Assembly: GCA_030424845.1 (NCBI GenBank)
Contig: JAUHWC010000001.1
Location: 248,001 to 312,000, forward strand
Direction: 5' to 3'
Source: Alphaproteobacteria bacterium
GTDB taxonomy: Bacteria > Pseudomonadota > Alphaproteobacteria > Sphingomonadales > Sphingomonadaceae
DNA length: 64,000 nt
Shown here: positions 1 to 14,865 of the stretch, piece after piece
How positions within the stretch are numbered: the stretch's first letter is position 1
How the letters are laid out: each line of letters begins with the position of its first letter
Program-made: the position numbers and the translations under genes
The notes under the pieces: generated by a model
Told to the model about the DNA's origin: nothing
Seen by the model: the letters and a program-made list of their open reading frames with translations, nothing else
The model's database searches: none

Positions 1-2247
1 GACAGTGACGAGGAGGATTCCGAAGAATCCGAAAGTGAGGACGACGGAGAAGAATCCGACGACGCAAAGCCGCGCCGCGGCCGCCGTGGTCGTGGCCGCC
101 GTCAGGGCCAGGGGCAGAACCGCCGCCGTGGCAGCCGGGCCAAGGAAATCGACGACATCCGCGCCAAGCGCCAGGCATTGCGCCGCCGCTACAAGATCCA
201 GGACGTCATCCAGCGCCGCCAGGTCCTGCTCGTCCAGGTCGTGAAGGAAGAGCGCGGCAACAAGGGTGCTGCACTCACCACATATCTCTCGCTTGCCGGC
301 CGCTATTGCGTCCTGATGCCCAACTCCAGCCATGGTGGAGGCATTTCCCGCAAAATTTCAAATGGTTCGGACCGCAAGCGACTGAAGCAGATCGTGAACG
401 ACCTGAGCCTGCCGAAGAGCATGGGCCTGATCGTGCGCACGGCAGGGCTCCAGCGTACCAAGACCGAAATCAAGCGGGACTTCGATTATCTTGCCCGGTT
501 GTGGGACGAGATCCGCGAGAAGACGCTCAGTTCCAGTGCCCCGGCGATGATCCATTCGGACAGTGACCTCATCAAGCGCGCGATCCGCGACATCTATAAT
601 CGCGAGATCGAGGAAGTTGTTGTCGAAGGCGAGGACGGATACCGCTCCGCCAAGGACTTCATGAAACTGCTGATGCCCAGCCATGCACGCCGGGTGAAGG
701 CCTATTCCGATCCGGTGCCGCTGTTCCAGCGCTATGGCGCCGAAGACCAGCTTTCCGCCATGTACGAGCCGGTGGTGCAGCTGAAGTCCGGCGGCTACCT
801 GGTGATCAACCCCACCGAAGCACTTGTGTCTATCGACATCAACTCGGGCCGATCCACCAAGGAGCATGGCATCGAGCAGACCGCGCTGCACACCAACCTG
901 GAAGCGGCGAAGGAAATCGCTCGACAACTCCGCCTGCGCGACATGGCAGGCCTGGTGGTCATCGACTTCATCGACATGGAGCACAACTCCAACATCCGCA
1001 AAGTCGAACGCGCGATGAAGGAATCGCTCCGGAACGACCGCGCACGCATCCAGGTGGGGCGCATTTCCAGCTTCGGACTGATGGAGATGAGCCGCCAGCG
1101 CCTGCGGACCGGCGTGCTCGAAGCGACGACCCGCTCATGCCCGCATTGCGACGGCACGGGCCTTGTTCGCACGGCATCGTCTGCCGGGCTCTCGGCACTG
1201 CGCCTGATCGAGGACGAAGCTGCAAAGGGCAAGGGCACACTCATCTCGCTCTATGCTTCCACCGAAGCCAGCGTCTACCTGCTCAATGCCAAGCGCGCTG
1301 ACCTGGCAGAAATCGAAAGCCGCTATAGTGTCACGGTGCAGGTCGTCCCGGAAGGCGAAGATGAAGGCGCGAAAATGCGCGTGACGTCTTCCGGTCCGCG
1401 TCCGGCTGAAGCCCCCAGGTTCGATCCCATCGTCGACGACGATGATGATGACGATGACGACATCGAGGAAACGAACGAGGATTACGGTGAAGACGATGAT
1501 GGCGCTCCCCGCAAGAAGCGCCGCCGCCGCCGCCGTGGAGGCCGCAATCGCAACCGCACTCGTGACAACGAAGAGAATGGCGAAGACAGCCAGGATCAGG
1601 ACGATGACGACGATGGCGACAGCTCCGAAGCTGCCGGAAAAGGCGATGGCGAAAGCGAGGCCGAAGGCGATGAGAAGCCCAAGCGTCGCCGTCGTCGTGG
1701 CGGGCGGGGCCGCGGTCGCAAGCGCACCGTCGAAGGCAAAAATGGTGAGAACGGCGAAGGCGAAGCAACCGATGAAGTTGCAGAGGACAGCCCTGCCGCA
1801 GCAGAGGTAACCGCCAGCGAAGACGAAGCAGAGGCTGAAGCGGCAGAGGAAAAGCCCAAGCGCCGCCCGCGCCGCAAGAAAGTCGATGCGGAGGCAGAGG
1901 CTGAAGCGGGTGAAGCTGACGCCGAAAGCGCTCCAAGCGAGGAAGCCGAGGAGAAGCCGAAGCGGCGCACCCGGCGCAAGAAGGCAGATGCCGAAGCTGG
2001 TGGCACCGAAGCGGTGACCGAGGAGGCGGGCGTGGAACCCGACAATGCGGACAACAAGACCAAGCCTGCGGCCAAGAAACGTGCCCCGCGCAAGAAGAAG
2101 GCTGAGGAGCCTGCTGCTGTGCAAGCCGCTGAACCTGCCACCGATGCAGGTGATGATCCCAAAGCCGAAGGTGACGTTCCCGAAGGCGAGCTGGATGAAG
2201 ATGGCGAGCCGCGCCGGGGCTGGTGGCAGCGCACGTTCGGAAACTGA
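1..2247 (+). CDS. rne: Ribonuclease E (5' end outside window)
   Basis: Endoribonuclease of the RNA degradosome, acting in mRNA turnover and rRNA/tRNA processing. The reading frame is open from base 1, so the start lies upstream. The first ~50 codons are an acidic run followed by an Arg/Gly/Gln-rich run. This looks like the low-complexity insert that splits the S1 domain in alphaproteobacterial RNase E, because S1-like sequence resumes directly after it (KIQDVIQRRQ, then MPNSSHGGG). The metal-binding motif VVIDFIDM is near base 955 and the Zn-link CPHCDGTG starts at 1138. From about 1430 the C-terminal half is disordered, with alternating Asp/Glu blocks and KPKRR-type basic blocks that normally bind RNA and partner proteins. 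The last residues, RRGWWQRTFGN, end in a typical sphingomonad C-terminus. Identity is secure; only the N-terminus is missing. Confidence 0.97.
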   Translation, partial: DSDEEDSEESESEDDGEESDDAKPRRGRRGRGRRQGQGQNRRRGSRAKEIDDIRAKRQALRRRYKIQDVIQRRQVLLVQVVKEERGNKGAALTTYLSLAGRYCVLMPNSSHGGGISRKISNGSDRKRLKQIVNDLSLPKSMGLIVRTAGLQRTKTEIKRDFDYLARLWDEIREKTLSSSAPAMIHSDSDLIKRAIRDIYNREIEEVVVEGEDGYRSAKDFMKLLMPSHARRVKAYSDPVPLFQRYGAEDQLSAMYEPVVQLKSGGYLVINPTEALVSIDINSGRSTKEHGIEQTALHTNLEAAKEIARQLRLRDMAGLVVIDFIDMEHNSNIRKVERAMKESLRNDRARIQVGRISSFGLMEMSRQRLRTGVLEATTRSCPHCDGTGLVRTASSAGLSALRLIEDEAAKGKGTLISLYASTEASVYLLNAKRADLAEIESRYSVTVQVVPEGEDEGAKMRVTSSGPRPAEAPRFDPIVDDDDDDDDDIEETNEDYGEDDDGAPRKKRRRRRRGGRNRNRTRDNEENGEDSQDQDDDDDGDSSEAAGKGDGESEAEGDEKPKRRRRRGGRGRGRKRTVEGKNGENGEGEATDEVAEDSPAAAEVTASEDEAEAEAAEEKPKRRPRRKKVDAEAEAEAGEADAESAPSEEAEEKPKRRTRRKKADAEAGGTEAVTEEAGVEPDNADNKTKPAAKKRAPRKKKAEEPAAVQAAEPATDAGDDPKAEGDVPEGELDEDGEPRRGWWQRTFGN

Positions 2248-2295
2248 TCGGGCAAACGGCAGCCAACGCCACCCTGCCCGTTACTGAAAGCATCG

Positions 2296-2327
2296 CGGGG
2301 CCAGCCTGACTGTCAGGTCTGGCCCCG
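2296..2327 (+). terminator. Stem-loop terminator after rne
   Basis: A strong inverted repeat lies 49 bases after the rne stop. CGGGGCCAG pairs with CTGGCCCCG, and an inner CCTGA/TCAGG extends the stem almost to the loop. No long T-run follows (GTTATGCTGC), so termination may be less efficient or bidirectional. The next gene is on the other strand and ends toward this site. Confidence 0.7.
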
Positions 2328-2426
2328 TTATGCTGCTAACCTATTGAGACAATCGACAGGTCCGGACGCCGGCCCGATGGCCGGCGTTAAGGACAAATGC
2401 GAGGCGCTGATCTGCGAGGGATCAGC

Positions 2427-3062
2427 TCATGTACCGATTTTGCGCGCCGCACCCCATTCCATCCATCCAGCCCATTTCGGTGCCTTCTCGAAATATTCCT
2501 GGCCGATCGGGTCGACTTCAAAGCCTGCGGGGCGGATGGCCGCGCCCACTTCACGGGCCAGATGACAATTGCCCATCATGCGTTTCCAGACAGGTTCGAT
2601 CCGCCTTTGCCATTTCGCCGGACCGGGGTCTGGAGCCTTGCCATGTTCAAGGTAAAGCAGCCGTCCTCCCGGTTTCAGGATACGCCGTAATTCCGAAAGC
2701 ACCTGCTGCTGGTCATCAACCGAACACAGCGTGTAGGTGCATACCACCGTGTCGAAGGAACCATCGGCAAAGGGAATGCTCTCACCAACGCCTTGGCGAA
2801 TGTCGGCCTCCCAACCCTGCTCGCGCGCTCGTGTACGCGCTGCATCCAGCAGGCTTGCATTGGGATCGATACCGGCAAAATGGGTGATCGCGTCCTTGCG
2901 ATAGAGTGGCTGGTTGTAACCGCTGCCACAGCCGATTTCGAACACGCGCCCTTCCGCCAGCGGAACAACCTGCCGGCGCAGTTCGGTCACCTCATCCGAG
3001 GCGCAGCCCAAGGCGATAACTTTCGGCAGGACCGTTTCGTCATACCAGTTGCGCAAACCCAT
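2427..3062 (-). CDS. Class I SAM-dependent methyltransferase
   Basis: Probable small-molecule methyltransferase of the UbiE/Methyltransf_11 type, 211 residues. The SAM-binding motif VFEIGCGSGYN is near residue 35-45. An acidic post-II residue (GIDPNAS), the motif GSFDTVVCTYTLCS and LKPGGRLLYLEHG follow in the usual order. I chose the ATG at 3062 because GGGGAGG precedes it by 6 bases and the N-terminus MGLRNWYDETVLP is that of the family; the frame stays open further upstream without a better start. It is a single gene between convergent rne and a same-strand SDR. The substrate cannot be read from the sequence. Confidence 0.88.
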   Translation of the reverse strand: MGLRNWYDETVLPKVIALGCASDEVTELRRQVVPLAEGRVFEIGCGSGYNQPLYRKDAITHFAGIDPNASLLDAARTRAREQGWEADIRQGVGESIPFADGSFDTVVCTYTLCSVDDQQQVLSELRRILKPGGRLLYLEHGKAPDPGPAKWQRRIEPVWKRMMGNCHLAREVGAAIRPAGFEVDPIGQEYFEKAPKWAGWMEWGAARKIGT

Positions 3063-3179
3063 CACGCCGCCTCCCCGACTTGTTTCTTGCCAGTCTAGCT
3101 GCTCCGAACGGAGAGCAAATGGCATTCTTGCCGCGCCCCCGCTCATCTCGGGTGCCACGACAGTCGGGCTGCGCGCTGA

Positions 3180-3911
3180 TCAGGGGGCGATTTCCTCGCC
3201 ATTCCAGGACAGCAGCTTGCCGCTCTTGTCGGGACCGGCATCGAGAATCACCCGGAGCAGGTTGAGCGCGGCCTCACGGCGGTTGGTCAGTTGCCCTTCG
3301 GGCAGGTTCGACTGGAAGGGCTTGGAAAGCGCCGTATCCACCGTTCCGGGATGCAAGGCGATGACGGCTCCCTGCTTGTGGGTGCGCGCCATCTCGATGG
3401 CGAAGTTCTTCACCAGCATGTTCAGTGCCGCCTTGCTGGCGCGATAGGAATGCCACCCGCCGATGCCGTTGTCTGAAATCGAGCCGACCTTCGCGGATAT
3501 CGCCGCCAGCACGAAGCGCTCGTCCCGCGGCATCAGCTCCAGCATGTGCCGTGCGATCAGGGCAGGCCCTATCGCATTGACCCGCATGACCTTTTCCATC
3601 GCTGCCGAATCGATGGACCGGAAACTGCGTTCAGGGCCCGTGCCGTCTTCCAGTGTCAGCACGCCACTGGCGATGATTACCAGTTCGGGCGGCGCGGCGG
3701 CCATCTCCTGCGCGGCAGCGGCGATGGTCTCCTCGTCTTCAAGGTCGAAATGGAAAGGTGTGCCAAACTGGTGCTTGGGCACCTCTCCCGATCGTGATCC
3801 GGCGTAGACCTGCACGCCCCTGTCCACGAGCACGCGGCAAAGCGCTGCGCCGATGCCGCCCGAAGCACCAAAGACTGCCGCACGACCGGGCCAGTTTGAG
3901 GATTCCGTCAC
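3180..3911 (-). CDS. Short-chain dehydrogenase/reductase (SDR)
   Basis: NAD(P)-dependent oxidoreductase of the classical SDR family, 243 residues. The Rossmann motif GASGGIGA is at residues 15-22. The catalytic Tyr/Lys pair occurs as YRASKAALN, with an upstream Ser in LAAISAKVGSIS, followed by HPGTVDT. The overall pattern resembles the CsgA/C-factor-like SDR subgroup. The start is a GTG with AGGAAG 6 bases upstream. The next gene (methyltransferase) lies 117 bases downstream on the same strand. Substrate unknown. The 242-base gap to sdhB on the other side holds divergent promoters; I see no further gene in it. Confidence 0.9.
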   Translation of the reverse strand: MTESSNWPGRAAVFGASGGIGAALCRVLVDRGVQVYAGSRSGEVPKHQFGTPFHFDLEDEETIAAAAQEMAAAPPELVIIASGVLTLEDGTGPERSFRSIDSAAMEKVMRVNAIGPALIARHMLELMPRDERFVLAAISAKVGSISDNGIGGWHSYRASKAALNMLVKNFAIEMARTHKQGAVIALHPGTVDTALSKPFQSNLPEGQLTNRREAALNLLRVILDAGPDKSGKLLSWNGEEIAP

Positions 3912-4153
3912 GATGAGCTTCCTACCATGAAGTTAGCAAACTAGGGAATGTGGCAAATTTGGAAACATGGTCTTTCCGCCATGACATACGGTGCCAGACG
4001 ACCAGCCTCGGCCAAACGGTGTCACTCACATCCTTGAACAACAAAGCCGTTGCCGCATCTTCATGCAGAAACTCCACCACTCGGACGAAGGTCTGCCTTG
4101 CCCTTGCGCTGTGAATGGGTAGATAGGGGTCATCCATTGGAAAGCGGACAAAC

Positions 4154-4936
4154 ATGGCAACTTTCACGCTCCCGAAGAACAGCAAGATCAACGGCCCCGG
4201 CAAGGAGCACAAGGCTCCCGATGCAGCGCGGGTGAAGAAGTTCAAGATCTACCGCTGGGACCCGGAGAGCGGCCAGAACCCCCGGTACGACACCTTCGAG
4301 ATCGACCTCGACGATTGCGGTCCGATGGTGCTGGACGCGATCATCAAGATCAAGAACGAGATCGACCCCACGTTGACCTTCCGCCGCAGCTGCCGCGAAG
4401 GGATTTGCGGTTCCTGCGCGATGAACCTGAATGGCAAGAACGGCCTTGCCTGCACCACCGCGATCGAGGACCTGCCCGGCGAAATCCGCATTACGCCGCT
4501 TCCCCACATGGAGGTGGTGAAGGACCTGGTGCCCGATTTCACCCATTTCTACGCGCAATACGCATCGATCCGGCCCTGGCTGCAAACGGTGTCCAACACC
4601 CCCAGCGGGAAGGAGCGCCTGCAAAGCCCTGAACAGCGGGCCAAGCTTGATGGGCTTTACGAATGCATCCTGTGCGCTTGCTGTTCGACCTCCTGCCCCA
4701 GCTACTGGTGGAATTCGGACAAGTTCCTTGGCCCGGCAATCCTGCTGCAGGCCTATCGCTGGCTGGCGGACAGTCGCGATGAAATGACCGGTGAGCGGTT
4801 GGACGAGCTGGAAGACCCCTTCCGCCTCTATCGCTGCCACACGATCATGAACTGTGCCAACGTCTGCCCCAAGGGCCTGAGCCCGGCCCGCGCCATCGCC
4901 GAAATCAAGAAGATGCAGGCCGAACGGCAGATCTGA
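4154..4936 (+). CDS. sdhB: Succinate dehydrogenase iron-sulfur subunit
   Basis: Electron-transfer subunit of complex II (TCA cycle, membrane-bound on the cytoplasmic face), 260 residues, full length. The [2Fe-2S] ligands are in CREGICGSC and a later Cys (GLACTT). The C-terminal ferredoxin-like half has [12 protein letters not shown] and [14 protein letters not shown] for the [4Fe-4S] and [3Fe-4S] clusters. sdhC, sdhD and sdhA are not upstream; an SDR gene on the other strand is there instead, so sdhB has its own promoter or has been separated from the rest of its operon. zapE follows with overlapping stop/start bases. The SdhA flavinylation factor sdhE is encoded at 36863. Confidence 0.98.
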
Positions 4937-6057
4937 CCCTGAGCGGCCTGCTCGCCCGTTACGAGGAACTGCTGGCATCCGGCGAACTGCGACCGGATCC
5001 GGAACAGCGCGCGGCTGCCGAAGTACTCGCTCGTGTGCAGCAAGGCCTTGAACAGCCCGGCAGGATCGGTCTTTTCCAACGCCTTCTTGCAGGCAGAAAG
5101 CCGCAGGCAGTGCGCGGCGCCTACATGTGGGGTGGCGTGGGGCGCGGCAAGTCCATGCTCATGGACCTGTTCCACGACACGCTGGCCATCGAGGCCAAGC
5201 GCCGTGTCCATTTCCATGCCTTCATGCTGGAAGTGCACAAGCGCATCGGGGAGGAGCGCAAGAAGGAGGCCGGCGATCCCATCGCACCGGTGGCCGCGGC
5301 CATCGCCAGCGAGGTACGGTGCCTCGCTTTTGACGAGATGGTGGTGAACAACTCGCCCGATGCGGCAATCATGTCCCGCCTGTTCACGGCGCTGATCGTG
5401 GATCACGGCGTATGCGTGGTGACCACCAGCAACCGCCCTCCCCGTGACCTGTACAAGGACGGCCTCAATCGCGAGCATTTCCTGCCGTTCATCGACCTCA
5501 TCGAGCGGGAACTGGACGTGGTCGAACTCAACGGCCCCACCGATTACCGGCTGGACAGGATCGGCGGCATGGCCAGCTGGCACTCCCCCATCGGCGCCGA
5601 AGCGACGGCGCAGGTGCGCGAACTGTTTTTCCGCCTGACCGATTTCGCCCCTGAAGATGCAGAGCATGTTCCCTCTGCCGATCTCGAGCTTGGAGGCGGA
5701 CGCAGGCTGCATGTTCCCAAGAGCCTGAAGGGCGTGGCCGTGTTCAGCTTCAAGCGCCTGTGCAAGGAAGCGCGCGGCGCTTCCGATTACCTTGCCATTG
5801 CCCGCGCCTATCACACTGTCATCATCGTAGGCATCCCGCGGATGTCACGCGAGATGCGCAACGAGGCGGCGCGTTTCGTGACGCTGATCGACGCGCTGTA
5901 TGAAAACCGGGTGAAACTCTTTGCAACGGCAGAGACGGAACCGGAGGACCTCTACGCGTCAGGTGACGGTTCGTTCGAATTCGAGCGCACGGTGAGTCGC
6001 CTCAAGGAAATGCAGAGCGCGGACTACATGGCCCTTGGCCACGGCGAAGAAGGCTAG
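4933..6057 (+). CDS. zapE: Cell division ATPase ZapE (AFG1 family), apparent CTG start
   Basis: AAA-like ATPase of the AFG1/ZapE family, linked to Z-ring constriction under stress and, in mitochondria, to respiratory complex quality control. Walker A is GGVGRGKS and Walker B-like is LAFDEM. The first standard start in this frame is a GTG at 5035, but the family N-terminus is encoded before it: the frame reads [20 protein letters not shown] from about 4948. No ATG, GTG or TTG occurs between the upstream stop near 4792 and 5035. A CTG at 4933, sharing bases with the sdhB stop, would give [10 protein letters not shown] and a full-length 374-residue product, so I annotate from there. The gene ends 4 bases into the convergent amidotransferase gene. 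Confidence 0.9.
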
Positions 6058-7952
6058 GCCGCGATACCGAGCCGCGACAGCGACTTGTCCAGCATCACAA
6101 GCTGCCAAAGCAACCGTGAATTGTTGCTCCGGCCGGAGATGTGCGCCTCGGCCATGCGGGAAAGCTGCGCCTTCTCGAACCATCCCGTGCGGGCGAGCGC
6201 ACTGCTTGTGGCAATCGCACGGGTCTGTGCCTGCAAGGGGCCGCGCAGCCATTCGGCAATTGGCGTCACGAAGCCCTGCTTGGGACGATAGAGGATGTCG
6301 TCAGGCAAATGCCGCTCCATCGCCTTCTTGAGCAGGTATTTGCCCTGTTTGCCCCTCACTCGCAGGCCCTCCGGCAATCCGGCAGCAAATTCGACAAGTC
6401 GGTGATCGAGCAACGGCTCTCGCGCCTCCAGGCTTACCGCCATGCTGGTCCGATCCACCTTGGTCAGGATATCGCCCGGCAGCCAGAACTTGAGGTCTGC
6501 ATATTGCGCGGCATCGAGACCTGAGCGCGCCGGGGCATTCGCCATCATCTCCATGAAGGGAAGCTCTGCGCGATATTCGCCAAGTTCCCTTGCCATGTCG
6601 GCACCGTAGATCGTGAAACGCTGTTCGGGCGACACCGAACCAACCGCCCGCGCATACCCTTCAGCCCCGCTCATCGACAGCGACATCAGCGTGGCCTTGG
6701 CCCGAAGCGGGCGCGGTGCCCAGTCCATCTTCGGCCATGTGCGTCCCAGAGGCCCCAGAACCTTGTCCCGCACGGAGGCAGGCAGCAAGCTGCGCAGGCG
6801 TTCCTCATGATGGTGGAACACCTGCCGGCGATATCCCGCAATCGCTTCGTCCGCGCCATCCCCTGACAAGGCCACGGTTACGCTCTCGCGCGCCAGTTGA
6901 CACACGCGCCACGTCGGCAAGGCAGAGGCATCGGCAAAAGGTTCGTCGAACATGTCCGCGATGGCATCCAGCGCATCGAACTGGTCAGCGCTGACAATGC
7001 GACTGGCGTGGTCTGTACCGAACAGCTCGGCGACCTGTCGGGCATAGGATGTCTCGTCCACGGCTTCCACGTCGAAGCCGATGGAGCAAGTGCGGACGGG
7101 ATCGCGACTGGCCTGGGCCATCATCGCAACCACGCTGGAACTGTCCACGCCGCCGGACAGGAAGGCACCGAGTGGAACGTCGGAATCCATCCGCGATTCC
7201 ACAGCCTGGTGCAGGTGATGGAGCAATTCCGCTTCAAGATCCTTTGCCTTGCCCTTGTGGCGTCGGGCAAAGGAAATATCCCAGTACTGCTGCGGCCTTG
7301 CCGGCGCGGCATCATGCTGCAGCAGGCGGAAATGACCCGCAGGCAGCTTCTCGACACCTTTGAGCATCGATCGATAGTCCGGGACGTAGCCCCAGGCCAT
7401 GAAGTCCTCCACCGCCCTCGGATCGACCTCTCGACGAAGCATGGGGTGCGCCAGCAGCCCTTTCAGCTCGCTGGCAAAGGCCATGCTGCCATCGCTGAGC
7501 ATTGCCGTGAACAGCGGTTTCACGCCGAAACGGTCACGGGCAAGGAAGAGTGTCCTTTCTGCCTTGTCGTAGATCGCAAAGGCGAACATGCCGTGCAGGC
7601 TGGAGAGGCAATCCGTTCCCCAGCGTTGCCAGGCGGCCAGGATCACTTCGGTGTCGCCATCAGTGCAGAACTGCGCGCCAAGTCCTTCCAGCTCGCGGCG
7701 AAGCTCCCGGTAGTTGTATATCTCGCCGTTGAAGGTGATGACGGCGCGATCGTCCGCACTCGTCATAGGCTGCGGGGAGCCTGCAAGGTCGATGATCGAC
7801 AGGCGGCGATGGCCCAGCCCCACGCCCGGCGCGGTCCAGACACCCGATCCATCCGGCCCGCGATGCGCCATTACGTCGCACATACGCTCGACCCGGCTGG
7901 GGTCGACCGGCTTGATGGTCCCGCAATGGAATATCCCGGCGATCCCGCACAT
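6054..7952 (-). CDS. XrtA/PEP-CTERM-system amidotransferase (asparagine synthase-like)
   Basis: Glutamine-hydrolysing asparagine synthase-like enzyme, 632 residues, of the subfamily found beside exosortase A (TIGR03108). It probably amidates a sugar or peptide in exopolysaccharide assembly. The class II glutamine amidotransferase domain starts MCGIAGIF, with Cys2 as nucleophile after Met removal, and includes RGPDGSG and FNGEIYNY. The synthetase domain has the PP-loop LSGGVDSSS and SGDGADE. I chose the ATG at 7952 because Cys must be residue 2 and CGAGGCGG lies just upstream. It follows the Wzz/EpsI chimera by 10 bases, exactly as the normal gene follows xrtA-epsI, so it sits on the intact side of the deletion. 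All catalytic motifs are present. Confidence 0.93.
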   Translation of the reverse strand: MCGIAGIFHCGTIKPVDPSRVERMCDVMAHRGPDGSGVWTAPGVGLGHRRLSIIDLAGSPQPMTSADDRAVITFNGEIYNYRELRRELEGLGAQFCTDGDTEVILAAWQRWGTDCLSSLHGMFAFAIYDKAERTLFLARDRFGVKPLFTAMLSDGSMAFASELKGLLAHPMLRREVDPRAVEDFMAWGYVPDYRSMLKGVEKLPAGHFRLLQHDAAPARPQQYWDISFARRHKGKAKDLEAELLHHLHQAVESRMDSDVPLGAFLSGGVDSSSVVAMMAQASRDPVRTCSIGFDVEAVDETSYARQVAELFGTDHASRIVSADQFDALDAIADMFDEPFADASALPTWRVCQLARESVTVALSGDGADEAIAGYRRQVFHHHEERLRSLLPASVRDKVLGPLGRTWPKMDWAPRPLRAKATLMSLSMSGAEGYARAVGSVSPEQRFTIYGADMARELGEYRAELPFMEMMANAPARSGLDAAQYADLKFWLPGDILTKVDRTSMAVSLEAREPLLDHRLVEFAAGLPEGLRVRGKQGKYLLKKAMERHLPDDILYRPKQGFVTPIAEWLRGPLQAQTRAIATSSALARTGWFEKAQLSRMAEAHISGRSNNSRLLWQLVMLDKSLSRLGIAA

Positions 7953-7962
7953 GGCCGCCTCG

Positions 7963-8484
7963 TTACGGCTTTTGCGCCAGACGGTCCATCCAGGCATCCA
8001 GATCGCCAGTGGATTCCACGAAATCGGCAAGCGCCTTGTCTGCCGGAACCGCCCCGCCTTCCTCGGCAGAGAGGATCAGCATCATCGTCGGCTCGGGGCT
8101 GAAGGTCAGCCTGTCACGCAGGTTGGAAAGCTTCAGACGCACAACACTGGAAGTAGTCAAATCGCGGTGGCGATAGAAGGTCAAGGCGAGGCGTTGCAGG
8201 TTGCTGCCCGATTGCAGGCGTTCGCTGAGCCCACCGTCGATGTCCGGACCCGGCGAATGCCAGCGCCAGCTGCTTTCCGGCATCAACGCACCCTCGCCAT
8301 AGGCCCCTGCTTCCCGACCCTCTTCCTGTGCCGCGTAAAGCGCGAAGAACAGTTCCACGCGTGCACCATCACCATTCACGTAGGAACCGATCAGGCAGAC
8401 CGCCCAGGCCGTGCCAAGCGCAATCCATCGGCGGTTCCAGACCGTCCAGATCGCTGCGCGCAACTCTTCGAGAAGCTGGTTCAA
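7963..8484 (-). pseudogene. Chimeric remnant: N-terminus of PEP-CTERM Wzz fused to C-terminal EpsI domain of exosortase A
   Basis: A 173-codon open frame joining two unrelated protein ends. Residues 1-33 (MNQLLEELRAAIWTVWNRRW, then one hydrophobic helix ending WAVCLIG) match what I know of the start of the XrtA-locus chain-length determinant (TIGR03007). From about residue 34 it reads as the end of an EpsI/DUF3485 domain: VELFFALYAAQEEGREAG, then SSWRWHSPG and EPTMMLILSAEE. That domain is normally the C-terminus of sphingomonad exosortase A. Wzz is usually ~500 residues and XrtA-EpsI similar. The gene lies between wza and the amidotransferase, the exact flanks of the usual wzz...xrtA interval. 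It starts with TTG preceded by AGGGGAA. It may be expressed as a single-pass membrane protein with a periplasmic EpsI fold, but neither parental function can survive. Junction at about 8380-8390. Confidence 0.8.
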
Positions 8485-8508: not shown

Positions 8509-9156
8509 TCAGAACATGCTTTCCGGGATGATGATCACATCACCCGGCATCAGCATCACGTTGGCCTCGCTCTCGCCCTTGCGCAGCAGGTCGCCCAGGC
8601 GCAGCGCATATTCCTGCTGCCTGCCGGTGGTGCGATCGAAGCGGATAAGTTTGGCGCGATTTCCCGATGCAAACTCGGACAGGCCGCCAACCGCGATCAT
8701 CGCGTCCAGCAGCGTCATGTTGGCGCGATAAGGCAGCGATGCAGGCTGGTCGGTCGCACCGACGACGCGCACCTGCTGGCTGAAGGTGCCGGCAAACTTG
8801 TTGACGATCACCGTCACCAGCGGATCGGAGATGTACTGCGAAAGCTGCAGGCGGATGTCTTCTGCCAGCATGGTCGGAGTCTTGCCCACGGCGGGCATGT
8901 CAGGCACCAGCGGCGTTGTGATGCGGCCATCGGGGCGCACCTGCACCTCGGCACCGAGCTCGTCATTACGCCATACGTGGATGGTCAATTCGTCAAGCGG
9001 GCCAATGACATATTCCTCGCCAGGGCCTTCCTGCATGGCGACGAAGGTCGCCGGTGCGAGCTGCGGGGCATTGGCCGTGGAGCTGCAACCGGTCAGCACC
9101 AGCGAGGCCGTGGCACCGGCTGCCAGAAGGCGGGCAATCGTGTTCATTCGCATCAT
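8509..9156 (-). CDS. XrtA-locus polysaccharide export lipoprotein (Wza family)
   Basis: Outer-membrane polysaccharide export protein of the type paired with exosortase A (TIGR03027), 215 residues. The signal peptide ends in lipobox LVLTGC, with the lipidated Cys around residue 23. The Poly_export motif YVIGPLDELTIHVWRND is followed by a SLBB-like segment (VRVVGATDQP...MTLLDAMIAVGG) and the C-terminal PGDVIIIPESMF. I start at the ATG at 9156 (MMRMNTIARLL) because GAGGA lies 4-7 bases upstream; a second ATG directly follows. The protein appears intact, but its usual partners Wzz, tyrosine kinase and exosortase are missing downstream, so export through it is doubtful here. Confidence 0.93.
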   Translation of the reverse strand: MMRMNTIARLLAAGATASLVLTGCSSTANAPQLAPATFVAMQEGPGEEYVIGPLDELTIHVWRNDELGAEVQVRPDGRITTPLVPDMPAVGKTPTMLAEDIRLQLSQYISDPLVTVIVNKFAGTFSQQVRVVGATDQPASLPYRANMTLLDAMIAVGGLSEFASGNRAKLIRFDRTTGRQQEYALRLGDLLRKGESEANVMLMPGDVIIIPESMF

Positions 9157-9304
9157 CGCGTCCTCAAGGGTTTCGGGAGCGAAGACGCGCCGGCAAAAGC
9201 CGACACGCATCCACTACCCGCGGATCCGGGGATGCTTGTCGCGAAAAAGGGTGAACATTGCGTTAGCCTTCCGGCCAAACAGGCGGATTTAGCTGGTTTT
9301 TCCG

Positions 9305-9342: not shown

Positions 9343-10569
9343 TTACACCAGCATTTCGCGTGCAGGCCCCTGGCCGAGGAAGGCGGCGGGACTGGCGCTT
9401 GCGCCGTAAGCGCCGGCGCAGAATATCGCGACGAGATCGCCGACTTCGGCGCGCGGCATCCATGCCTGGTCCGCCAGCCTGTCCAGCGGTGTGCACAGGC
9501 AGCCGACAATATTGACCTCTTCCTCGGCCTTTGCAGCAAAGCGCGTGGCGATGGCGACCGGGTAATTGCGGCGCACCACCGTTCCGAAATTGCCGGAGGC
9601 GGCAAGCTGGTGGTGCAACCCGCCATCGGTGACGAGATAGGTCACGCCGTGGCTTTCCTTCCGGTCGACGATGCGGGTCAGGTATACCCCGGCCTCCCCT
9701 ACCAGGTATCGGCCCAGTTCTATGGCGAATTCAGTCTCTTGCAGAATGTCCGGCAAGGCGGCGAACCGTTCTTCCAGCGCAGTACCGATGCTGGCGATAT
9801 CGAGAGGTTCGTCCTTGTCGAAATAGGGGATACCAAAGCCGCCGCCCATGTTGAGATGGGGGAGATCCTCGCCAATCTCGTCCGACAATTGTGCCGCAAG
9901 CGCCAGCACATTGGCCTGTGTTTCGATGATGGCAGCCGCATCGAGCGCCTGGCTGCCGGTGTAGATATGCAGTCCGCGCCAGTGACACCCGGCAGCTATG
10001 ATTTCCTTGGCGAGGGTTGGCACTTGCGCCTGGTCGATCCCGAACGGTTTGGCCCCGCCACCCATCTTCATGCCCGAGCCGCGCAGTTCGAACTCCGGAT
10101 TCACCCGGATGGCAAGGCGCGGTGCCACGCCCAGGGCCGTTCCTGCCTCCAACGCCCGCCGCGCCTCATTGGCGGATTCCAGGTTCAGCGTAACGCCTGC
10201 CTTGACAGCCGCGAATATCTCGGAATCGCGCTTGCCGGGACCGGCAAAGCTGATCTCGCGCGGCAGGAAACCTGCATCGCGCGCCATCGCCAGTTCGCCG
10301 CGCGATGCGATATCAAGGCCGTCCACAAGCTCCGCCATGTGTTCAAGCAAAGGCGCGAAGGGATTGGCCTTCATCGCGTAATGGATGTTCAGCCTCTCGG
10401 GCATGGCCTTGCGCAAGGCATCCATCCTGGCATCCAGCATCGCGCGCGAATAGACGAACAGCGGCGTGTCGCCCGATTCCTTCACCAACGCGCTTGCGGT
10501 GCGTCCGCCGATGGCGAGTTCACCGTGCATCGTGCCGAAACCTGCCGGGATGGGACCGAGCGGCTTCAT
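9343..10569 (-). CDS. PLP-dependent decarboxylase, exosortase A system-associated
   Basis: Fold-type III PLP decarboxylase related to diaminopimelate/ornithine decarboxylase (LysA-like), 408 residues, matching the XrtA-associated subfamily TIGR03099. The PLP lysine is in HYAMKANP. The glycine loop is LNMGGGFG and the second half contains GCLCTPLD and GAYGAS. It probably decarboxylates an amino acid carried or activated by the neighbouring ligase/ACP pair, but the substrate is not established. It begins with an ATG overlapping the stop of the upstream AMP-ligase (ATGA), so the two are translated together. All expected motifs are intact. Confidence 0.92.
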   Translation of the reverse strand: MKPLGPIPAGFGTMHGELAIGGRTASALVKESGDTPLFVYSRAMLDARMDALRKAMPERLNIHYAMKANPFAPLLEHMAELVDGLDIASRGELAMARDAGFLPREISFAGPGKRDSEIFAAVKAGVTLNLESANEARRALEAGTALGVAPRLAIRVNPEFELRGSGMKMGGGAKPFGIDQAQVPTLAKEIIAAGCHWRGLHIYTGSQALDAAAIIETQANVLALAAQLSDEIGEDLPHLNMGGGFGIPYFDKDEPLDIASIGTALEERFAALPDILQETEFAIELGRYLVGEAGVYLTRIVDRKESHGVTYLVTDGGLHHQLAASGNFGTVVRRNYPVAIATRFAAKAEEEVNIVGCLCTPLDRLADQAWMPRAEVGDLVAIFCAGAYGASASPAAFLGQGPAREMLV

Positions 10570-12080
10570 GACAGTGCCTCGCGCACCAACAGGCTGCCGT
10601 CGATCTTGCCGTTGGGATTGAGCGGCATGGCCTCCAGCCAGCGAATCTCGGCAGGCTGCATGAAATTGGGCAGTTCGCGCAGCAGGGCCTTGCGCAGGCC
10701 ATCCTCGTCACCCGAACCACGCACCACCAGCAGGATTGCCTGCCCCAGCCTTTCGTCCGGCACGCCGATGGCGACGGCTTCCTCGGCAAATCCGGTGGCC
10801 ACGGCGGCTTCCTCCACTTCCTGCGGGCTGATCCGATTGCCCGCGCTCTTTATCATCGCATCGCGCCGACCGACAAAATAGAGCAGTCCGTTCTCCTCGC
10901 GGCGCACCCTGTCCCCGGACCAGACGGCCATGCCTCCATATTCGGACATGGCCGGCGCCGGCTTGAAGCGTTCCGCAGTCCTCCCGGCATCCTGCCAGTA
11001 TCCCTGCGCCACCAAGGGTCCGCAATGGACAAGTTCGCCTTCCTCACCTGGAGCGGCAATGTCTCCGTCATCATTGACCACGAGGATTTCGGCAAAGGGA
11101 ATGGCCTTTCCCATCGAGGTGGGATGCGCATCCACCAGCGACGGGTCGAGATAGGTCGAGCGGAAAGCCTCGGTAAGACCGTACATCGGAAAAAGGCGTG
11201 ATTGCGGGAAGATGCGTCGCAAATCCGAGACAAGGTCTGTAGTCAATGCCCCGCCGCTATTGGTCAATCGCCGCATGGAATTGACCGCCTCTGCCGGCCA
11301 ATCCTGCTCCACCAGTTGCACCCACAGCGGAGGCACTGCGGCAAGCGTGGTAATGCCATGTTTGGCACAAGCCTTCAGCACATCACGCGGCGTCAGGTAA
11401 TCGAGCGGAACCACACTCCCGCCGGCATACCAGGTGGAAAGCAGCTGGTTCTGGCCATAATCGAAACTCAAGGGCAGGACTGCCAGCGTCACATCGTCGC
11501 GCTCCATTGCCAGATAGTGCGCCACACTCACTGCACCGAGCCACAGGTTCGCATGGCTCAGCATCACGCCCTTTGGCTTGCCGGTCGAGCCGCTGGTGTA
11601 AAGGATCGCGCACAGGCTGGCCGGATCGCAATCGGACGGCGCGAGATTGCCGCCAAAGGCCCCTGCCTGCTCCCAAGCGGCCTTTTCGCCAATCACGGCG
11701 CATTCCGTGGGCGTGTCACCCTCTTCAAGGCTTTTCAGGCGCGCTTCGGTGCCGATCAGGACGCTTGCCCCGCTATCAGCCAGGATATGCCTAACCTGGG
11801 CGTGCTTGAGCAGCGGGTTGATGGGGACGTGCACCAAGCCTGCCCGCGCTGCGGCAAGGGGCATCAAGCACGTGAGTTCACCTTTCGCCGCCCAAGTTGC
11901 CACCCTTGCGCCCTTGGCAGGCACAATCTCCGCCAACCAGGCCGCGAGCAGGCTCACACGGCTTCTTAAGCCATTCCAGCTAAGGCTTTGCCCGCGCAGG
12001 ACAAGTGCCATATCCTCGTCCCACCCGACAAGGGCGAGATGATCGAGCGGTTTGGCAACGGGATCGAGCGTTACAGGCAA
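10566..12080 (-). CDS. AMP-forming acyl-CoA/acyl-ACP ligase, exosortase A system-associated
   Basis: ANL-superfamily adenylating enzyme, 504 residues, of the XrtA-associated type TIGR03098. It activates a carboxylic acid as acyl-AMP and loads it on a thiol, plausibly the acyl carrier protein at 13097. The P-loop is LYTSGSTGKPKGVMLSH; later core motifs MYGLTEAF, SGDRVRREENG and NGKIDGS are present, the last holding the catalytic Lys. The start is a TTG with GGAG upstream. The divergent acyltransferase begins only about 23 bases away, so both promoters must lie partly inside the opposing genes, or one gene is read from elsewhere. Confidence 0.92.
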   Translation of the reverse strand: MPVTLDPVAKPLDHLALVGWDEDMALVLRGQSLSWNGLRSRVSLLAAWLAEIVPAKGARVATWAAKGELTCLMPLAAARAGLVHVPINPLLKHAQVRHILADSGASVLIGTEARLKSLEEGDTPTECAVIGEKAAWEQAGAFGGNLAPSDCDPASLCAILYTSGSTGKPKGVMLSHANLWLGAVSVAHYLAMERDDVTLAVLPLSFDYGQNQLLSTWYAGGSVVPLDYLTPRDVLKACAKHGITTLAAVPPLWVQLVEQDWPAEAVNSMRRLTNSGGALTTDLVSDLRRIFPQSRLFPMYGLTEAFRSTYLDPSLVDAHPTSMGKAIPFAEILVVNDDGDIAAPGEEGELVHCGPLVAQGYWQDAGRTAERFKPAPAMSEYGGMAVWSGDRVRREENGLLYFVGRRDAMIKSAGNRISPQEVEEAAVATGFAEEAVAIGVPDERLGQAILLVVRGSGDEDGLRKALLRELPNFMQPAEIRWLEAMPLNPNGKIDGSLLVREALS

Positions 12081-12103
12081 GAAAGGCTCCAGGGCGAAGA
12101 TCA

Positions 12104-13087
12104 GTGGAAGCGGTCAGCTATCACGATACGGTTAAACATCTGCATGGCCTTCGCCTTTCGGGCAAGGGGCCCTTCGCGCATGTCGACTGGTTTGGCCTGC
12201 TTGAAGATGCTGCGCACTCGCTGTTCCTTGCTGTCGCGACCGCGGGACAATCCAGCGCCTGCCTGCCACTATGCACGGGGGAAGCTGGGTTGGAAGCGCT
12301 GACCAACTGGTACGCCTTCACGGGGAGGCCGCTGGTCGCGGGCCAACCACACTCCAAACTATTCGAGGCGCTGGCAAGGGATCTAGCAACCAGGGCTTCC
12401 CGCATCACCTTTTCCAAGCTTGCCCCGGAAGACCCGTCAACTGCGCAATTGGATCGAGGCTTTCGCGCTGCTGGATGGTCCGTGATCCGCGAAGAATGCG
12501 ACACCAACCACTACCTGCCCGTCAATGGCCGCAGCTATGCCGAATACATCGCATCGCGTCCCGGCCCCTTGCGCACCACCCTGAAACGCAAGGCCAGGAA
12601 GGTGGAGGTCGTGCTCAAGCGCGAGTTCGATCCGTCAGACTGGGCGGCTTACGAGGCGATATATGCCGCAAGCTGGAAGCCCGAGGAGGGCGATCCCGCC
12701 ATGCTCCGCGCCTTCGCCGAGAGCGAGAGCACCAAGGGCCATTACCTGTTCGGCATGGCCTTGGCTGATGGCAAGCCGGTGGCGGCGCAGTTCTGGACGG
12801 TGGAAGGCGGAACAGCCTATATCCACAAGCTCGCCCACCTCGAAAGCGCGCAGAAGCTCTCGCCGGGCACCACGCTGACCGCGGCGCTCATGGAGGAAGT
12901 CATCGACCGCGATCGCGTTGCGGAAGTCGATTTCGGCACCGGAAACGATGGCTACAAGGCGGACTGGATGGAGGCCACGCGACCGCGCATCGCCCTCACC
13001 TGCCTTCGCGCCGGATCGCCTGCCAACTGGCCGTTTCTGGCGAGGGCCAAGCTGCGCAAGCTTGTTTCCCGGCGAAGCGCTGGCTAG
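12104..13087 (+). CDS. FemAB/GNAT-like acyltransferase, XrtA-locus type
   Basis: Protein of about 327 residues with an Acetyltransf_6 (CelD/FemAB-like GNAT) domain in its second half. The pattern runs from KARKVEVVLK through YEAIYAASWKPEE to GHYLFGMALADGKPVAAQFW, then AYIHKLAHLE and DFGTGNDGYKADWM. Such proteins move an acyl or aminoacyl group onto a sugar or amine. I place the start at a GTG at 12104 because homology-like sequence (YHDTVKHLHGL) begins just after it. An earlier GTG at 12005 would overlap the divergent ligase gene heavily. It is the first of four plus-strand genes with ACP and two hydrolases, spaced 9 bases or less or overlapping. Exact subfamily (TIGR03019 or another GNAT) uncertain. 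Confidence 0.75.
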   Translation: MEAVSYHDTVKHLHGLRLSGKGPFAHVDWFGLLEDAAHSLFLAVATAGQSSACLPLCTGEAGLEALTNWYAFTGRPLVAGQPHSKLFEALARDLATRASRITFSKLAPEDPSTAQLDRGFRAAGWSVIREECDTNHYLPVNGRSYAEYIASRPGPLRTTLKRKARKVEVVLKREFDPSDWAAYEAIYAASWKPEEGDPAMLRAFAESESTKGHYLFGMALADGKPVAAQFWTVEGGTAYIHKLAHLESAQKLSPGTTLTAALMEEVIDRDRVAEVDFGTGNDGYKADWMEATRPRIALTCLRAGSPANWPFLARAKLRKLVSRRSAG

Positions 13088-13399: not shown

Positions 13400-14065
13400 T
13401 TGCAGCTGCAATCCTGGCAAGCGCCCGGTGGCAGCGAGGAACTGGCCATAGGTTTCGGGCCTGGCAATGCCGCGCGCCTGCTGGTGCTTCCCGCATGGTT
13501 CGATGAAAGCAACAAGCTGCGCCACTTCACCATCCAGGCAATGCGCGCGCTGGAAAAGCGCGGTTTGGCAAGCGTGATGCCGGATCTTCCCGGCTGCAAC
13601 GAGAGCCTCGCCTCGCTGGAACATCAGGACCTTGCCGGTTGGCGCAGCTGCGTTGCGGATGCCGCCACCCAGCTTGGCTGCACGCATGTCCTTGCCATCC
13701 GAGCCGGAGCGAATATCGCTCCCGCCCTGCCCGGTTTCGCCTTCGCCCCGCTCGCCGGAAAAAGCGCATTGCGAGCCTTGCTGCGCGCACGCAGCATCAG
13801 CGCCAAGGAAGCCGGGCGCGAGGAGAAAAGCGCGGACTTGCTGCAACTGGGCAAGGCCGAAGGGCTGGACCTTGCAGGATATCGGCTTGGTGCGTACATG
13901 ATTGCCCAATTGGCAGATGCCGAGTTGCCTGCCACTGCGCCGCTGACCGAGATCAAGCAGGCAGAGCTTGGCGGCCCGGCCCTCTGGCTGCGCATGGAGC
14001 CGGACCACGACCAGCAACAGGCGGAAACGCTCGCCGCCCTTATCGCTGCGGATATCGCGCCATGA
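13400..14065 (+). CDS. Alpha/beta hydrolase 2, exosortase A system-associated
   Basis: Alpha/beta-hydrolase-like protein of 221 residues, fitting the XrtA-associated family TIGR03101. An N-terminal strand segment LLVLPAWFDESNKLRH is followed by MPDLPGCNES. The expected nucleophile elbow reads LAIRAGANIA and has no Ser or Cys at the centre, so it may be non-catalytic; I recall family members with a similar Arg there. The start is TTG with GAGGGG upstream. It ends in an ATGA overlap with hydrolase 1, arguing that the two proteins work as a pair. Confidence 0.82.
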   Translation: MQLQSWQAPGGSEELAIGFGPGNAARLLVLPAWFDESNKLRHFTIQAMRALEKRGLASVMPDLPGCNESLASLEHQDLAGWRSCVADAATQLGCTHVLAIRAGANIAPALPGFAFAPLAGKSALRALLRARSISAKEAGREEKSADLLQLGKAEGLDLAGYRLGAYMIAQLADAELPATAPLTEIKQAELGGPALWLRMEPDHDQQQAETLAALIAADIAP

Positions 14066-14865
14066 GCCGCCGCCACCTGATCTTCGGCTGCGAAGGCGAA
14101 ACGCTGGCGGGCACGCTTGACGCTGCGCCGGGAAAGGTCGGGCTTCTCATCGTGACCGGCGGCAATGAAACACGCGCGGGCGCGTTCTCCGGCCAGGCGG
14201 AGCTGGCGGCGCATATTTGCGCGCAGGGTTTCCCCGTATTCCGTTTTGACCGACGCGGCGTTGGCGATTCCAGCGGCGAAAATCGCGGGTTTCGGTCCAG
14301 CGCGCCGGACATCTCCGCCGCCCTTACCGCGTTCCGCGAGGCGCAACCGGACATCGAACGCACTGTAGCCTTGGGCAATTGCGATGCAGCAAGCGCGTTG
14401 ATGTTGTGCGCTGGATCCGGTGCCGATGCGCTGGTACTGGCCAATCCCTGGACCTTCGACAGCGATGATGACGATGGCCTTGCTCCACCCGAAGCGATCC
14501 GATCCCGCTATATCGCCAAGCTGAAGAACCCGCGCGAAGTCTTGCGCTTGTTCACCGGTGGCGTGTCGCTGTCAAAGCTCGCGAAAGGCCTCAGGCAGGC
14601 AGCTGCCGGGCCATCGCCTCCTTCTTCGCTGGCCAAGGAAATGGCTTCTGCCATGGAAGCATCGCGAAAACCGGCACGTTTCCTGATCGCGGGCAGCGAT
14701 CGCACGGGGCAGGCCTTCATGGCGGCATGCCCGGAATTTTCCGGACAAAGGGATATATGCGCGGATGCCGGCCATTCCTTTGCCGAACCGCACGCCCGCC
14801 AGTGGCTGCACCGTCGGGTGATGTCAGCCCTTCAGGAACAGGCTCGCCAGCTCGACATGGGTTGA
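14062..14865 (+). CDS. Alpha/beta hydrolase 1, exosortase A system-associated
   Basis: Alpha/beta hydrolase of 267 residues, XrtA-associated family TIGR03100. The nucleophile elbow LGNCDAAS puts Cys107 in place of Ser. FRFDRRGVGDSSG lies upstream and the probable catalytic His is His238 in DAGHSF. The start ATG at 14062 overlaps the stop of hydrolase 2. The 3' end overlaps the convergent RNA methyltransferase gene by 42 bases, so the final ~13 codons are read on both strands. It may work as a thioesterase for the carrier protein upstream; this is inference from position and the Cys nucleophile. Confidence 0.85.
   Translation: MSRRHLIFGCEGETLAGTLDAAPGKVGLLIVTGGNETRAGAFSGQAELAAHICAQGFPVFRFDRRGVGDSSGENRGFRSSAPDISAALTAFREAQPDIERTVALGNCDAASALMLCAGSGADALVLANPWTFDSDDDDGLAPPEAIRSRYIAKLKNPREVLRLFTGGVSLSKLAKGLRQAAAGPSPPSSLAKEMASAMEASRKPARFLIAGSDRTGQAFMAACPEFSGQRDICADAGHSFAEPHARQWLHRRVMSALQEQARQLDMG

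Follow-up and report, generated by a model that had tools for sequence, protein, structure and literature searches.

The Sphingomonadaceae genome analysed here (G000) very probably carries a recently dismantled exosortase A (XrtA)/PEP-CTERM/EPS system, marked by two deletion scars in which the start of one gene runs in frame into the end of another. In the window (the whole stretch of 64,000 nucleotides under analysis), one deletion of about 9.6 kb at a short microhomology would have joined the start of wzz in frame to the end of xrtA. Lost with it would be most of wzz, the tyrosine kinase, five more genes and all of exosortase A but the EpsI end. A separate deletion of about 6.1-6.25 kb at the prs locus, on another contig, would have brought the same fate to epsB-prsK-prsR-prsT. 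Both deletions would switch off the XrtA/PEP-CTERM/EPS system, leaving no sorting enzyme, no PrsK/PrsR for the sigma-54 promoters and no XrtA-type EpsB sugar transferase; any PEP-CTERM protein that G000 still encodes would remain unmade or unsorted. The first scar had been proposed in a first-pass annotation of the window; the second scar, the orphan PEP-CTERM substrates and the promoter change reported here are new.

Composition of the fusion ORF

The ORF at the first scar has 173 codons and a TTG start and, by comparison with relatives, is confirmed as an in-frame fusion of a wzz start and the EpsI end of exosortase A, flanked by the wza gene and the amidotransferase gene that the first-pass annotation had named as its borders. 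The features in the window are the following:

7963..8484, minus strand: fusion ORF of scar 1, 173 codons (profile searches, congener comparison, DNA alignment)
8392..8484, minus strand: first 31 codons of an XrtA-type wzz (90% DNA identity to bases 1-93 of wzz in the congener G034)
7963..8394, minus strand: end of xrtA, last 143 codons (stop included), an EpsI domain minus its first ~31 model positions (78% DNA identity to the xrtA end of G034; TIGR02914, 66.3 bits)
8392..8396, no strand: deletion junction with a microhomology of 3 bp, possibly 5 bp (overlap of two DNA alignments; codons of four relatives)
8509..9210, minus strand: wza-type export gene, left border of the deletion in transcription order (TIGR03027, 220 bits for 8509-9132)
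6054..7955, minus strand: XrtA-associated amidotransferase, right border (TIGR03108, 951 bits)
9343..10569, minus strand: exosortase A-associated decarboxylase, retained (TIGR03099, 588 bits)
10566..12080, minus strand: exosortase A-associated acyl-CoA ligase, retained (TIGR03098, 643 bits)
13400..14065, plus strand: hydrolase-2-like gene, retained (TIGR03101, 36 bits, below the cut-off of 203)
14062..14865, plus strand: exosortase A-associated hydrolase 1, retained (TIGR03100, 209 bits, cut-off 168)

For the EpsI part, the profile check that had been suggested gave a clear match, DUF3485 reaching 55.8 bits on fusion residues 31-159 (cut-off 26.1). The curated cut-off of TIGR02914 (EpsI family), 42.8 bits, is likewise passed, over fusion residues 31-161 and model positions 32-168, with the first 31 of the 174 model positions missing. 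The corresponding check on the Wzz part was borne out by relatives rather than by the profile: TIGR03007 (the XrtA chain-length determinant) gives 10.7 bits, below its cut-off of 278.85 and on model positions 2-31 of 498 only, while the fusion N-terminus is 63-82% identical to the wzz N-terminus of 34 congeners. In a protein database search, residues 1-33 showed 70-76% identity to the N-termini of three PF02706 (Wzz) proteins (P0011-P0013). The single helix ascribed to this piece is present in shortened form, with a best 19-residue Kyte-Doolittle mean of 1.24 vs 2.13 in native Wzz.

The predicted structure of the fusion has a pLDDT of 52, and a Foldseek search with the model of an intact EpsI (P0003, pLDDT 71.8) returned nothing at E <= 0.001; both models derive from shallow alignments and are too weak for arguing function. 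Most likely, the 173-residue protein has no function and is a marker that exosortase A was recently lost, together with its regulators and EPS partners. We infer that the products of both scars are inactive, which would most likely make them fossils.

Among the retained genes, the decarboxylase, the ligase and hydrolase 1 each score over their cut-offs. Beside these accessory genes lies a 360-codon ORF (window 12005-13087, plus strand) that NCBIfam models leave unmatched at E <= 1; by eye, it resembles the ORF that G034 has at this position (L062 3082-4065).

The deletion at the wzz-xrtA locus

The size and content of the deletion were taken from G034, the nearest relative used. Fusion bases 1-93 align with its wzz start and bases 91-522 with its xrtA end, and because these alignments share 3 bp (5 bp with the congeners G015 and G028), the break would fall inside a short shared sequence, if the bases of relatives are a guide to the ancestral ones. 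The microhomology that had been suspected at 8380-8390 exists, at a different position: the junction lies at 8392-8394, possibly extending to 8396.

On both sides of the scar the DNA is collinear with G034 (L062), with a 9,640-bp gap. The G034 stretch missing from G000 comprises the rest of wzz (TIGR03007), the tyrosine kinase (TIGR03018, 189 bits, below the 231 cut-off), an outer-membrane-type gene with no NCBIfam model at E <= 1e-20 (TIGR03016 being assigned by position only), an ATPase (TIGR03015), a deacetylase (TIGR03006), FemAB (TIGR03019), a glycosyltransferase (TIGR03087) and the first 375 codons of xrtA (TIGR03109, 325 bits). The gene content expected by the first-pass annotation agrees with this list, except that its TIGR03016 member holds by position only and that it left out the glycosyltransferase.

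Elsewhere in the G000 assembly, the missing 9.64 kb gave only three matches of 35-74 bp. Exosortase PF09721 had no match in the assembly at E <= 0.001, the one DUF3485 match is scar 1 itself, and the single PF02706 match, in a frame of 743 codons, belongs to a separate polysaccharide cluster (contig C5) and is not an XrtA-type wzz. G000 presents a wzz N-terminal piece, an xrtA C-terminal piece, collinear flanks and a segment absent elsewhere, and the proposal of one deletion of several kb with ends in wzz and xrtA stands: relative to the nearest relative, a single 9.64-kb deletion with 3-5 bp of microhomology would explain scar 1.

The C5 polysaccharide cluster (267-7296, plus strand; L110) holds sugar transferase, O-antigen-ligase-like, Wza-like and Wzc-like ORFs, named by eye, and is intact. 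Since it remains, the cell need not be free of EPS.

Scar 1 across the genus and the family

The fusion protein was searched in 40 genus genomes, namely G000 and 39 congeners, and found matches in 35 (G000 and 34 of the 39 congeners). In the suggested comparison with relatives that keep the locus, the match is split between two genes in all 34 matching congeners: a wzz-type ORF covers it from residue 1 or 2 to residue 33-36, and an xrtA-type ORF from residue 19-33 onwards. These lie on one contig in 31 congeners, 9,607-9,850 bp apart, and on different contigs in the other three (G001, G006 and G023); a single unbroken match occurs in G000 only. The five congeners without a match are 69, 70, 86, 87 and 98% complete. 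The last of these, G008, has no wzz, EpsI or PEP-CTERM match, yet has PrsK over its cut-off, and may represent a loss by another route.

At the family level, PF09721 is found in 329 of 397 genomes (302 of the 360 good ones), so the absence of an exosortase is not rare, and DUF3485 in 303 (278 of the good ones). When the match lists were compared by eye, four of the 397 genomes had DUF3485 without PF09721: G000, G178, G294 and G309. The last three were rejected as further EpsI scars, their DUF3485 matches running into contig ends, so that an EpsI scar inside a contig is found in 1 of 397. The first-pass reading was to be overturned if many genera had this 173-residue protein next to an intact xrtA; no such pattern was seen among these 397 genomes. 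A match in Croceibacterium selenioxidans that seemed to span the fusion (L079) is a plain wzz. In the protein database, a cluster of two proteins is represented by P0001, which lies on a 1,500-base contig and differs from the fusion by one residue (D to G at 163).

A second scar at the prs locus

In G034, the prs region consists of TerC, a symporter, prsT (99 bits, below its 312 cut-off), prsR, prsK, epsB and a transporter. When this DNA was searched in G000, its two flanks adjoined on contig C5, with about 6.1-6.25 kb between them gone, and the middle of the region gave only short matches of 47-215 bp elsewhere. The join lies in one ORF:

G000 contig C5 56472-56990 (L109 6473-6991), plus strand: second in-frame scar, EpsB start and PrsT end, 172 codons (DNA and protein comparison with G034)

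This ORF has 31 epsB codons followed by the last 141 codons of prsT, the PrsT piece being 57% identical to G034 over G034 residues 486-621, and at the join (L109 about 6565) at most one shared base can be inferred. The deletion took prsK and prsR. PrsK (TIGR02916) passes its cut-off in 35 of the 40 genus genomes, G008 included, and G000 is not among them, its best match (E 2.4e-18) falling short of the 300-bit cut-off. A protein database search found no second copy of the EpsB-PrsT fusion. The comparison at this scar is with G034, and the prs junction did not chain against another congener, G007. In that congener, about 275 kb separates the wzz-xrtA and prs loci on a single contig; in G000 each of the two has a contig of its own. 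On this evidence, a second XrtA locus appears to have collapsed in the same way as the first, by a separate deletion.

PEP-CTERM substrates and sigma-54 promoters

It had been suggested that xrtA and PEP-CTERM proteins be sought elsewhere in the genome, and this revealed, next to the absence of PF09721, three PEP-CTERM matches in G000, two of them strong. The two strong ones (contigs C7 and C3) are intact ORFs that begin with a signal-peptide-like segment, continue with a body rich in Ser and Gly and end in a full VPEPGM...RRRR tail. The third, at 21.5 bits, is weak (L090, G000 contig C8 19822-19890, minus strand) and has an EASGLTLFALG-type tail. Small EAS-tailed proteins like it, without a sigma-54 site, occur in G026, G031, G036 and G061, and such proteins may not be PEP-CTERM substrates.

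A -24 GG/-12 GC pattern at PEP-CTERM genes has been linked to PrsR (Haft et al. 2006, PMC1569441). In G034 and G007, the relatives of the C7 gene carry TGGCAC-N5-TTGC, a sigma-54 element, at -72, while the G000 gene has TTGCAC at -70, the -24 GG being lost. Among 24 congener PEP-CTERM genes, chosen by eye and not all orthologous, four have an EAS-type tail and no sigma-54 site; the -24 GG is kept in 19 of the other 20 (14 exact, 5 with one mismatch), the G028 gene having no such element; this comparison tolerated one mismatch and would overlook a more decayed site. The C3 gene of G000 has no sigma-54 site in 300 bp. Measured against a functional XrtA/PEP-CTERM system, G000 retains the substrates and lacks PF09721, a PrsK over the cut-off and the C7 -24 GG.

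Age of the deletions and alternative explanations

Nei-Gojobori distances with three outgroups were used to compare the G000 and G034 branches. Branch dN of the EpsI piece is 0.048-0.070 in G000 and 0.054-0.076 in G034, and that of the PrsT piece 0.183-0.200 and 0.199-0.217, respectively. The 31-codon Wzz piece is faster in G000 with one outgroup (0.047 vs 0.012), slower with one and equal with one, being too short to weigh, and the EpsB piece was left out. G000 shows no faster evolution in the ligase, decarboxylase and wza that it retains; for the longer stretches, the dS separating it from G034 is 0.5-1.6. The absence of faster dN in the EpsI and PrsT pieces suggests normal constraint for most of the time since G000 and G034 diverged and, as these pieces evolved no faster than in the relative, both deletions are probably recent. 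Of the two options offered by the first-pass annotation, a recent event or a selected product, the recent event fits best, and nothing found supports selection for the product.

Equal dN would also fit a selected product, one that is kept because an EpsI anchored in the membrane benefits the cell (as would an anchored PrsT tail at scar 2) or because the in-frame scar keeps downstream translation going. We regard this as improbable. It would accommodate two scars in frame and open, EpsI and PrsT pieces without relaxed evolution and near-equal retained lengths (31+142 codons at scar 1 and 31+141 at scar 2, in each case from the first and the last gene of the operon, with products of 173 and 172 aa), but the rates are equally well explained by recent deletion, and the shortened Wzz helix, the missing start of the EpsI domain and the poor model of the fusion speak against it. 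A match of cut positions as close or closer arose in 0.00016 of simulations, a post hoc figure that assumes uniform ends and G034 gene lengths and is no test; the chance of both joins being in frame, also post hoc, is 1 in 9. There is a slim chance that the two collapses are not independent, through non-random deletion on co-regulated operons or through selection for translated-through joins or for a small anchored protein; at scar 1, open translation for the amidotransferase could have favoured an in-frame join.

A synteny scan against G007 (231,464 + 134,326 aligned bases, that is, 366 kb or about 13% of the genome, the C3 part being 134 kb aligned) gave 7 tight junctions at which G007 has 1 kb or more in addition, and two genes are joined in frame at scar 1 only. 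Long ORFs also cross other junctions (C7 48,350, 50,190 and 98,556; C3 145,482), and the ones inspected were wrong-strand frames or ORFs extended upstream across a gene border. Within the 366 kb aligned to G007, operons have not generally collapsed in frame.

The two in-frame joins and their near-equal retained lengths could also come from an engineered strain with designed in-frame deletions, which we consider very unlikely: a designer would hardly keep about 140 terminal codons, the first fusion has a one-residue variant on a short separate contig, and the -24 promoter change is unexpected of a design. Slightly less credible still is an assembly artefact, in which reads were wrongly joined and the full loci exist. 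Both joins are taken from the assembly; that at scar 1 lies 256 kb inside a 913-kb contig, overlaps of 1-5 bp would be too short for an assembler collapse, and the assembly, with a completeness rating of 99.86%, does not contain the missing stretch at any other place; moreover, the database variant P0001 lends support (not proof), and both losses strike one regulon. An ordinary stand-alone EpsI gene with its own anchor and no deletion, for which there is precedent in the separate gene beside epsH in Methylobacillus 12S (PMC1569441) and in family frames of 224-290 codons with EpsI, short of exosortase length, is refuted by the DNA comparison, given the 90% identity of the N-terminus to wzz and the absence from G000 of the separate wzz and xrtA of 34 congeners. 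A recent dismantling by two deletions is the explanation that we retain.

Relation to known systems and implications

The G000 loci resemble the exosortase A/PEP-CTERM system with PrsK-PrsR-PrsT (Haft et al. 2006, PMC1569441) in locus content, accessory genes, substrates and sigma-54 -24/-12 promoters, and differ from it in that the enzyme, PrsK and PrsR are gone. According to the same paper, EpsI has no known function, and the PEP-CTERM system may be lost, leaving PEP-CTERM remnants, its treatment of such loss describing no fusion scar. An EpsI domain without an exosortase is what scar 1 shares with EpsI as a separate gene (TIGR02914), whereas the domain at scar 1 is truncated and headed by a Wzz piece. 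A loss of the PEP-CTERM export system in some strains of a lineage has been proposed for 'Ferrovum' group 2 (PMC4886054), where it was deduced from absence, whereas in G000 both junctions are visible. In the open-licence literature, the titles and abstracts among the matches listed contained no such fusion.

The genes removed by scar 2 correspond to epsB2, prsK/prsR and prsT, mapped in floc-defective mutants of Aquincola tertiaricarbonis (PMC9850573), which are laboratory transposon mutants, in contrast to a natural deletion of the whole set in G000. In that bacterium, the PEP-CTERM gene pepA is RpoN-dependent, and plasmid-borne prsK or prsK-prsR did not restore flocs (PMC9850573). By analogy with other bacteria, G000 may have lost aggregation or XrtA-type EPS.

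For annotation, the scar 1 ORF carries a warning: its score passes the EpsI threshold, and an annotation could present it as a functional protein. Exosortase/PEP-CTERM loss is usually visible only as absence; G000 seems to show such a loss shortly after it happened: both junctions can be seen, substrates and accessory genes are still there, and one sigma-54 promoter is damaged. This genome would offer a natural test of the fate of PEP-CTERM proteins without their enzyme, and of the roles that the accessory genes (decarboxylase, ligase, hydrolases, amidotransferase and wza) may have besides XrtA.
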